Translations under genes and position numbers: made by a program
Shown: positions 7,130 to 14,996 of the stretch, piece after piece
Layout: every line of letters starts with the position of its first letter
Position numbering within the stretch: position 1 is the stretch's first letter
Assembly (NCBI GenBank): GCA_024643795.1
Contig: JAHEMF010000018.1
Location: 1 to 48,891, forward strand
DNA: 48,891 bases
Reading direction: 5' to 3'
DNA from: Bacteroidota bacterium
GTDB taxonomy: Bacteria > Bacteroidota > Bacteroidia > AKYH767-A > OLB10
The notes under the pieces: model-generated
What the model was told of the DNA's origin: nothing
The model's database searches: none
Seen by the model: only the letters and a program-made list of their open reading frames with translations

Positions 7130-7206
7130 TTTTTGCAATTCAAAATTTACAAGGCAAACTATATTAACCGATGCTTATAAATGTTACTGGTTTTTATTGC
7201 ACAAAG

Positions 7207-7280
7207 TGATTCCGATTGGATTCGAACCAATGACCTACTGCTTAGAAGGCAGTTGCTCTATCCAGCTGAGCTACGGAACC
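7207..7280 (-). tRNA. tRNA-Arg (anticodon TCT)
   Basis: The reverse complement folds as a 74-nt cloverleaf. The acceptor stem GGTTCCG pairs with CGGAATC with one G-T pair. The anticodon stem ACTGC/GCAGT carries loop CTTCTAA, and the T-loop is TTCGAAT. The anticodon TCT reads AGA. The discriminator is A and no CCA is encoded. It is the last gene of the tRNA cluster read from right to left. Confidence 0.95.
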
Positions 7281-7390: not shown

Positions 7391-7468
7391 TGGTCGGGGT
7401 GGCAAGATTCGAACTTGCGACCTCCTGCTCCCAAAGCAGGCGCGATGACCGGACTACGCTACACCCCG
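7391..7468 (-). tRNA. tRNA-Pro (anticodon TGG)
   Basis: The reverse complement has acceptor stem CGGGGTG/CACCCCG, anticodon stem CCTGC/GCAGG with loop TTTGGGA (anticodon TGG), and T-arm CAAG-TTCGAAT-CTTG. A CCA end is encoded at 7391-7393, unlike the neighbouring tRNA-Arg. A decayed copy of this gene and its 5' flank lies 155-170 bp to the right. Confidence 0.95.
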
Positions 7469-7538
7469 AATGATCTGGATAAGATCCTGATCAGTACAGA
7501 ATTTTTACATTCTGATATTACTTAATATTTTAAAGAAC
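7459..7538. repeat. Direct repeat, copy A (tRNA-Pro 5' end and leader)
   Basis: This is the first copy of a duplicated segment that starts in the tRNA-Pro acceptor and runs through its upstream spacer. The first 43 bp (7459-7501) match 7630-7672 exactly. The remainder to TAAAGAAC at 7538 matches 7673-7717 with small changes and insertions. Confidence 0.9.
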
Positions 7539-7549
7539 AACCCTCAGCT

Positions 7550-7639
7550 TCACCTTGGCAAGTTCTTACAAACTTGCGACCTTCCCGATCCTGTCGGGAC
7601 GCGATGACCGATCCCGAAAGCTTTCGGGACTACACCCCG
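7550..7639 (-). pseudogene. Degenerate tRNA-Pro copy with three hairpin replacements
   Basis: This aligns with the intact tRNA-Pro: the connecting pieces (CTTGCGACCT, CGCGATGACCG and CTACACCCCG on the + strand) are kept. The three arms are each replaced by a self-complementary hairpin. The T-arm is now CAAGTT/AACTTG with a 6-nt loop (7560-7577). The anticodon arm is now TCCCGA/TCGGGA (7583-7599). The D-arm is now the perfect palindrome TCCCGAAAGCTTTCGGGA (7612-7629). The 3' acceptor strand no longer pairs with the 5' strand and there is no anticodon, so it cannot work as a tRNA. Together with copy B of the repeat it accounts for most of the gap between tRNA-Pro and tRNA-Ser. Confidence 0.75.
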
Positions 7640-7717
7640 AATGATCTGGATAAGATCCTGATCAGTACAGAACTATTACATTCTGATATTTTTTACTTAC
7701 TTAACATTTTAAAGAAC
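7630..7717. repeat. Direct repeat, copy B (5' flank of the tRNA-Pro pseudogene)
   Basis: This is the second copy of the tRNA-Pro 5' end and leader. It is identical to 7459-7501 over its first 43 bp and then diverges slightly, including a few extra T-rich bases. It shows that the segment arose by tandem duplication and not by chance similarity. Confidence 0.9.
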
Positions 7718-7777
7718 TATAAATCTTCACTCAATTTCACCTTTCAACCCACCCTTTTTTTCACCTGTTCTAATTCG

Positions 7778-7866
7778 CGGTGAGGGAGGGATTCGAACCC
7801 TCGGTACCGGTTTCCCAGTACGACAGTTTAGCAAACTGCTCCTTTCGACCACTCAGGCACCTCACC
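7778..7866 (-). tRNA. tRNA-Ser (anticodon GCT)
   Basis: An 89-nt class II tRNA. The acceptor is GGTGAGG/CCTCACC with discriminator G. The D-arm contains the typical GCCTGAGTGGTCGAAAG. The anticodon loop TTGCTAA (anticodon GCT) sits on GCAGT/ACTGT, followed by a long variable arm and a GGTTCGAATCC T-arm. It is first in the tRNA transcript, with a strong promoter immediately upstream. Confidence 0.95.
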
Positions 7867-14568: not shown

Positions 14569-14616
14569 GTTACAGGGATCAACCTGTGTTCCATATTAAT
14601 TATTCAAAATAAAAAA

Positions 14617-14990
14617 GCAAACCTATAAGCCGGGTTCTGTTCCCACCGAAGTGGGCTCCTATCATTTATCTGCGATATACATCACTGCATACCTGAATCG
14701 ACCTACCCCCGGCACCGGGCGAGCCACCCTTCTATCCGGCAAGCCGGAAAGTCCGTGTACATGGTCTTTCAACCCACAAGGTTTACCCTCCCGGAATGTC
14801 GCCACCCGGGACGTGAGCTCTTACCTCACGTTTTCACCCTTATCCCGAATGAACGGGACGGTATAGTTTCTGCGGCACTTTCTGTTACCGGGTCATTTCT
14901 AACCCGATACCTTCCCGTTAGGAAGTGTGGTGCTCTGTGTTGCCCGGACTTTCCTCCCCTGCACTAAGCTGAGGCGATAGGACGGTTTGC
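14617..14990 (-). ncRNA. rnpB: RNase P RNA, bacterial class A
   Basis: The reverse complement contains the conserved core: GAGGAAAGTCCGGGC near the 5' end, GGTAAACC and ATAGAAGGGTGGC in the middle, and ACAGAACCCGGCTTA near the 3' end. The two ends pair (GCAAACC with GGTTTGC), giving about 374 nt, the usual length. It is the catalytic RNA that trims tRNA 5' leaders. Short open frames inside this segment are not genes. Confidence 0.96.
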
Positions 14991-14996
14991 TTTATG

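Follow-up and report, generated by a model that had tools for sequence, protein, structure and literature searches.

The tRNA-Pro(TGG) gene of the window (the whole 48,891-nt stretch of Bacteroidota DNA that was analysed) is accompanied by a tandem copy in which tRNA arms have been exchanged for hairpins. Copies marked in the same manner recur beside other tRNA genes of the same genome and across Bacteroidota, often next to small GIY-YIG nuclease genes. We regard the case as evenly balanced that the window holds a dead, hairpin-marked tRNA-Pro copy of a Bacteroidota family of tRNA-gene-homing GIY-YIG elements, formed via cutting of a tRNA arm and tandem repair; the cutting, the mobility and the function of the hairpin are what we infer. 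More tentatively, these elements might represent a new class of selfish chromosomal element with tRNA-specific GIY-YIG homing, in which the arm-for-hairpin swap serves as the element's end or as a self-immunity tag and the working part is recognised by its shape.

Results

A tandem tRNA-Pro copy with hairpins in place of arms

The window contains a Ser(GCT)-Pro(TGG)-Arg(TCT) tRNA cluster on the minus strand (7866-7206), with a degenerate tRNA-Pro and its leader between Ser and Pro. The features of the locus are as follows.

7206-7280, minus strand: tRNA-Arg (TCT), last gene of the cluster (ARAGORN)
7391-7468, minus strand: intact tRNA-Pro, anticodon TGG (ARAGORN; Rfam RF00005, 69.1 bits)
7469-7540, minus strand: leader of the intact tRNA-Pro, from which the second leader was duplicated (direct repeat, alignment)
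about 7550-7639, minus strand: tRNA-Pro part-copy with arms changed to hairpins, no functional tRNA, 3' strand of the acceptor decayed (alignment; no ARAGORN call)
7558-7577: T arm with altered loop and longer stem, GCAAGTT..AACTTGC, without the TCCCGA motif (sequence, fold)
7583-7599: hairpin TCCCGATCCTGTCGGGA (sense TCCCGACAGGATCGGGA) where the whole anticodon arm was (alignment, motif search)
7612-7629: hairpin TCCCGAAAGCTTTCGGGA where the D-loop was (alignment, motif search)
7640-7713, minus strand: duplicated leader of the copy (direct repeat, alignment)
7777-7866, minus strand: tRNA-Ser (GCT), first gene of the cluster (ARAGORN)

A preliminary description of this DNA had reported a second copy of tRNA-Pro plus leader, and alignment confirmed it as a 171-bp tandem copy, offset +171 from the intact gene, in which 43 bp are identical (7459-7501 = 7630-7672) within a 75-bp direct repeat of 89% identity. 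The same description held that all three arms had become hairpins. This was borne out for the D-loop and the anticodon arm, both of which carry TCCCGA/TCGGGA hairpins; the T arm is a weaker case since it is without this motif, its stem GCAAG/CTTGC being retained and its loop changed from TTCGAAT to TTTGTAAGAA, which makes the stem longer. On the sense strand, the D-loop CGTAGTC of the intact gene corresponds to TCCCGAAAGCTTTCGGGA in the copy, and the 17-nt anticodon arm CCTGCTTTGGGAGCAGG is replaced by the 17-nt TCCCGACAGGATCGGGA between the retained borders GCG and AGGTCGC. The final 5-7 nt of the copy's acceptor strand have decayed. The two sense sequences read as follows.

Intact tRNA-Pro: CGGGGTGTAG-CGTAGTC-CGGTCATCGCG-CCTGCTTTGGGAGCAGG-AGGTCGCAAG-TTCGAAT-CTTGCC
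tRNA-Pro copy: CGGGGTGTAG-TCCCGAAAGCTTTCGGGA-TCGGTCATCGCG-TCCCGACAGGATCGGGA-AGGTCGCAAG-TTTGTAAGAA-CTTGCC

The window has two occurrences of the pattern TCCCGA-N(0-20)-TCGGGA, each of them in the tRNA-Pro copy; 0.03 were expected in the window, and none of 100 shuffles reached two. The RNA strand of the copy is predicted to fold into three hairpins (-35.7 kcal/mol, z -3.1), and ARAGORN found nothing tRNA-like left in it. An Rfam scan of the window returned no families besides tRNA and RNase P, the latter an ordinary RNase P RNA on the minus strand at 14610-14993 (RF00010, 247 bits). There was no long ORF between the copy and the tRNA and no GIY-YIG ORF at 7469-7776, and none of the genome's six PF01541 matches fell on the window's contig (C7). 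The copy, being without a nuclease ORF, is therefore placed in the family by its hairpin, its arm borders and its tandem layout.

Hairpins in tRNA part-copies of the same genome

The window's own genome (G000; 2.88 Mb in 110 contigs) was searched for TCCCGA-N3..12-TCGGGA, with the reversed pattern as a control. Twenty hairpins were found, and none with the control. Seventeen of the 20 lie within part-copies of tRNA genes (Pro, three Leu, Val, Trp and Ala), in the D, anticodon or T arm, and an intact gene usually adjoins the part-copy. Of the remaining three, two are terminator copies that follow tRNA-Val, and the third is in an unrelated stretch of DNA. The loci are listed below.

Window, tRNA-Pro copy: D and anticodon arms
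C26, tRNA-Trp piece: D-loop hairpin
C39/C60, tRNA-Leu(CAA): three 5' pieces, D-loop; one 3' piece, T-loop
C48, tRNA-Leu(CAG): three tandem 3' pieces, T-loop
C49, tRNA-Val: one 5' piece, D-loop; two 3' pieces, T-loop
C68, two tRNA-Ala-like pieces: D-loop
C89, tRNA-Leu(TAA): two 5' pieces, D-loop

The TCCCGAAAGCTTTCGGGA motif of the window's D-loop recurs in nine other D-loop copies of this genome, and the strict form TCCCGATNNNNATCGGGA lies in a tRNA copy in 15 of 15 cases (9 D-loop, 6 T-loop). With tRNA-derived DNA set at 0.18% (about 0.2%) of the genome, the chance of 15/15 is ~1e-41, a figure in which tandem copies are not independent, though at least six separate tRNA loci are. Recurrence of the window's unit, which the preliminary description had raised, was thus found in part: one or two hairpins per tRNA copy recur, and the three-hairpin unit itself is not repeated. 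Chance hairpins were rejected by the shuffles and the genome counts. Terminators were rejected as well; the hairpins at C49:11097 and 11263, after tRNA-Val, are terminator-like with a T run, and those in tRNA arms are without one.

The same arm borders with other hairpin letters in relatives

At 308 nt, the window's Ser-Pro spacer exceeds the 14-125 nt measured in 19 of the 20 relatives that share the Ser-Pro order. The sole exception, G005, belongs to another genus and also has marked tRNA-Pro pieces: at its orthologous tRNA-Pro(TGG) locus (L024), GCG[TCCCGATGGGAATCGGGG]AGGTCGC follows the intact gene and GCG[TGCCGATGGGAATCGGAA]AGGTGGC precedes it. The tRNA-Pro(TGG) of G052 (L080) is associated with GCG[TCCCGATTTTGATCGGGA]AGGTCGC. 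In both relatives the anticodon arm has been swapped at the window's borders for a hairpin of other letters. Ordinary decay of a tRNA pseudogene was rejected because the same borders recur with other letters. The preliminary description had suggested either a repeat family derived from tRNA or hairpin elements with tRNA arms as their targets, and had set against this suggestion a lone copy with neither counterparts elsewhere nor conservation in relatives. The hairpins in tRNA arms of the own genome (17/20) and the swap shared by G005 and G052 speak for the suggestion.

At the G005 locus, an ORF of the PF05635 family (23S rRNA intervening-sequence / four-helix bundle) was seen between tRNA-Ser and tRNA-Pro, beside the swapped pieces (G005:C32, about 1710-2070).

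The strict hairpin was present in 32 of the 61 genomes searched. Where contexts were read by eye in the window's family, TCCCGAN6TCGGGA fell within tRNA pieces in 18 of 20 instances (G005 6/7, G009 8/9, G014 4/4). Some marked pieces form arrays. In G038 (L185), six 66-bp units, each made up of the leader and nt 1-26 of tRNA-Trp with a swapped D-loop, stand directly before the intact tRNA-Trp; this array is inside a 2.7-Mb contig and so is no artefact of an assembly end. Other arrays comprise four tRNA-Lys units in G005 and seven units after tRNA-Val in G018. Copies of tRNA-Arg(CCT) at L171 have hairpins inserted in the D and T loops with no base lost and are otherwise 72/73 identical. Within one genus, tRNA-Arg(CCT) is followed in G003 by a nuclease gene and four two-hairpin units and in G011 by none; G016 has T-loop-swapped pieces of this tRNA.

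Small GIY-YIG nuclease genes beside tRNA genes

Genes for small GIY-YIG proteins of a single domain are common among Bacteroidota. Among 93 sampled small GIY-YIG ORFs from the 61 genomes, 38 lay within 400 bp of an intact tRNA, against ~1.6% expected (p ~1e-43), and the tRNA was typically 10-60 bp away, upstream and on the same strand. The control was PF05635, a family of small ORFs that is about as common; among its top hits, from which alone it was sampled, 1 of 30 loci lay within 1.5 kb of a tRNA (Fisher p 7e-6). The four-helix protein was on that count rejected as a general partner, despite its one ORF in the G005 Ser-Pro spacer.

The usual order at these loci is an intact tRNA, the GIY-YIG ORF, a tRNA piece with one arm changed to a hairpin, and the remaining 3' part of the tRNA (L136, L130, L152, L166, L144). 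Two such tRNA-linked genes occur in the window's own genome, both at tRNA-Leu genes with hairpin copies; their GIY-YIG domains start 45 bp (C39, intact) and 26 bp (C89, truncated) after the tRNA. The PF01541 domain was present in 13 of the 13 nucleases checked, no NCBIfam model scored above cut-off for these proteins, and the nearest solved structures by sequence were UPF0213 and SLX1 (1zg2, 1ywl, SLX1). The catalytic residues of the GIY-YIG domain (Y, Y-x-G, R, H, E) are invariant (Y5, Y16, G18, R26, H30, E64). The predicted nuclease fold is clear from the Pfam match and these active-site residues. At L130, L144 and L108 the tRNA piece and the hairpin supply the end of the GIY-YIG frame, and the proteins terminate in ..GSAHPA or ..GSEHPE.

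In a tree of the nucleases, tRNA-linked genes cluster, and they sort by tRNA identity with 21 changes compared to 30-38 in 300 shuffles. Groups correspond to Met, Val, Arg(CCT), Ala, Asn, Asp and Ser, and several span different host families, in a tree of few columns that is too shallow to prove or exclude transfer. Each GIY-YIG subfamily holds to a single tRNA and, for the most part, to a single arm.

The Val clade was followed into GTDB genomes, where a scan gave 294 relatives. The best 80 of these were examined and nearly all carried a Bacteroidota label, among them Algoriphagus, Niastella, Flavisolibacter, Marivirga, Chryseobacterium, Elizabethkingia and further genera; the other labels, on two MAG contigs, are probably binning errors. 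At about 73 of the best 80 loci there is a tRNA within 420 bp, usually Val(TAC), and in Weeksellaceae usually Arg(TCT). At 53 of the 80, the anticodon arm of a nearby tRNA copy is exactly replaced by a hairpin between GCA and GGGTC. Pairs 1-6 are paired in 44 of 44 distinct Val-clade hairpins, and pairs 2, 6 and 7 vary on both sides, with a degree of pairing that 0 of 2000 shuffles matched. Covariation of the hairpins, looked to in the preliminary description, was accordingly seen at tRNA-Val and tRNA-Arg loci together with the arm swap itself. The palindrome is conserved, by compensation or by exchange of whole palindromes. The inserted and displaced tRNA 3' halves at the Val loci are mostly identical, so a foreign origin of the inserted gene end cannot be shown.

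Some arm-swapped copies are named by ARAGORN as tRNA-Cys(GCA), Val(AAC) or tRNAs with odd anticodons (L292, L301, L250, L271 and others), the tRNA-Cys(GCA) of L301 and L292 being read from the hairpin loop. Some annotated Bacteroidota tRNAs may therefore be arm-swapped copies.

Hairpins outside tRNA genes

Strict hairpins were numerous in G037 (81), G048 (93) and G010 (34), where the few contexts read were mostly AT-rich repeats. In the more distant G054 nearly all hairpins are outside tRNAs, often in the loops of other palindromes. The presence of tens of hairpins outside tRNAs in some genomes means that the hairpin can occur without a tRNA target.

Several individual sites were recorded. At L345-L351 (G054) the hairpin stands at the loop of larger inverted repeats, CCTCTG-hairpin-TCAGAGG and TCACGC-hairpin-CGTGA, as if palindromes nest in loops generally. 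In G037, G022, G020, G012, G021, G010 and G006, TCCCGATAGCTATCGGGA is flanked by short direct repeats within AT-rich intergenic DNA, away from any tRNA (L055, L063-L066, L073, L074, L190). At L071 (G008:C33, near 1501), TCCCGATTTACATCGGGA is in an apparent 23S rRNA gene beside tRNA-Ile/Ala, possibly as a hairpin in an rRNA helix.

Discussion

Proposed mechanism and alternatives

In the mechanism we propose, a GIY-YIG nuclease would cut an arm of its tRNA gene, and repair of the break would add a tandem tRNA copy, either with the nuclease gene or, as in the window, without it. A hairpin would take the place of the cut arm in the new copy, which would then no longer be recognised or cut, and the intact copy would maintain the cell's tRNA supply. 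Later unequal exchange could grow the hairpin copies into arrays of up to six or seven. The window copy would have arisen in this way, or by deletion from such a product, with the nuclease acting in trans or since lost. Several observations count against homing: next to every nuclease gene, the intact tRNA retains the very arm expected to be cut; the window locus has no nuclease ORF; and some genomes have tens of the hairpins outside tRNAs.

The spared intact tRNA, the unexplained hairpin letters and the hairpins outside tRNAs make a separate mobile palindrome the main rival, one that we consider unlikely. The hairpin would then be a REP-like palindrome that a Y1/RAYT transposase or some other enzyme moves into hairpin loops, including those of tRNA arms and terminators; only insertions in spare copies would survive since single-copy tRNA genes are indispensable, and the GIY-YIG gene would be a separate guest at the same hot spots. 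Such movement would fit the occurrence, in several genomes, of hairpins away from tRNAs, often flanked by direct repeats or set in the loops of other palindromes, as well as those in terminator loops (L056, L062) and the variation in hairpin letters between genomes, which makes the hairpins look locally resident. The own genome has one Y1 transposase ORF (C13:3064), on a contig without this hairpin. Against a mobile palindrome, every strict copy in that genome is in a tRNA copy. A mobile palindrome also leaves unexplained the match between nuclease clade and tRNA identity and the arm swap at the nuclease border in 53 of 80 Val-clade loci.

Cassette-like site-specific recombination appears improbable. 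Circles made up of one tRNA arm flank, the hairpin and the other arm flank would integrate at the arm, with the hairpin as the recombination site, like attC in integrons, and arrays would be serial insertions. The array units do exactly fit integration of a circle at the arm (six at L185, three at L013-L015, seven at L175), and folded single-strand hairpins and tRNA arms are alike in shape, but unequal crossing-over accounts for the arrays equally well.

We give similarly little weight to the idea that hairpin copies are selected as structured RNA, for example as decoys for tRNA-cutting enzymes or as processing elements or terminators in the tRNA transcript or the nuclease mRNA, for which 23S rRNA intervening sequences offer a comparison. 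The copies lie within the tRNA transcription unit, the nuclease C-terminus enters the tRNA piece and hairpin at several loci, and covariation keeps the stems paired, although this may reflect exchange of whole palindromes. The copies are often truncated at either end and can be present or absent within one genus, and the swap removes the anticodon loop, the usual target of nucleases. A one-off decayed tandem duplicate with hairpins by chance, to which the decayed 3' acceptor strand and T-loop of the copy might point, is already refuted by recurrence at seven tRNA genes of this genome and in many genera, and we set it aside as extremely improbable.

Under tRNA-gene homing, genes that are essential and nearly invariant would serve as homing sites on bacterial chromosomes, and the exchange of an arm for a hairpin would offer an explanation, open to direct testing, of how such an element escapes its own nuclease. 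By the present data, a large share of the small GIY-YIG genes of Bacteroidota goes with particular tRNA genes and with an unusual scar. The tRNA part-copies and the assembly breaks at tRNA genes in these genomes would thereby be explained, and annotators are warned that ARAGORN takes some swapped copies for tRNAs.

Comparison with known systems

The tRNA-linked GIY-YIG elements would be a variant of two known kinds, the free-standing homing endonuclease and the mORF-like insertion. In the open-access literature, which was the scope of our search, with subscription literature outside it, we found no published description of such elements and no account of the small Bacteroidota GIY-YIG genes, the hairpin or the tRNA/palindrome arrays. 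By sequence, the nearest solved structures are single-domain GIY-YIG proteins of the UPF0213 / SLX1 type, and those GIY-YIG genes of these genomes that have no tRNA nearby fall mostly on separate branches of the tree. REP/RAYT palindromes and Rickettsia palindromic elements are short, repeated, hairpin-forming DNA found at many sites. In contrast to these, the hairpins of the window's family are nearly confined to tRNA arms and are tied to GIY-YIG genes.

The intervening sequences of 23S rRNA in Coxiella and other bacteria are similar in that a palindrome-ended insert occupies a hairpin of a structural RNA (PMC4990558), and PF05635 is shared through the ORF in the orthologous tRNA-Ser/Pro spacer of G005. 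Those inserts are located in functional rRNA and are excised by RNase III (PMC4990558), whereas the window's insert is in a spare, dead tRNA copy. The position in a functional RNA gene that defines the 23S type is thus absent here, the hairpins being in a copy beside the intact tRNA-Pro.

Fungal mitochondrial mORFs (Glomus, Allomyces atp6) consist of the start of a host gene, an inserted gene end, an endonuclease ORF and the displaced native end, and the endonuclease of the Glomus atp9 mORF is of the GIY-YIG type (PMC3630166). A displaced gene end behind an endonuclease ORF is likewise found at the Bacteroidota tRNA loci; the layout of intact gene, endonuclease ORF and displaced 3' end is seen at L136, L130, L152, L166 and the Val loci, and not in the window. 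The mORFs differ in residing in protein genes, and the available part of that account names no tRNA target and notes no hairpin at the displaced end (PMC3630166).

SegB, a free-standing GIY-YIG endonuclease of phages T4/T6, cleaves tRNA genes internally at RAWTSGAAC, a motif similar to the complement of the T-loop, and its activity is required for tandem amplification of a tRNA gene (PMC13096335). It resides in a phage and not in a chromosome, and the available part of the study describes no hairpin-swapped tRNA copies for SegB. The study saw no preference for particular tRNA isotypes (PMC13096335), whereas the Bacteroidota clades hold to one tRNA. A GIY-YIG gene beside tRNA genes, a T-loop-like cut motif and tandem tRNA amplification are nevertheless shared features, and by analogy SegB provides the closest experimental support for a cut-and-repair mechanism (PMC13096335).
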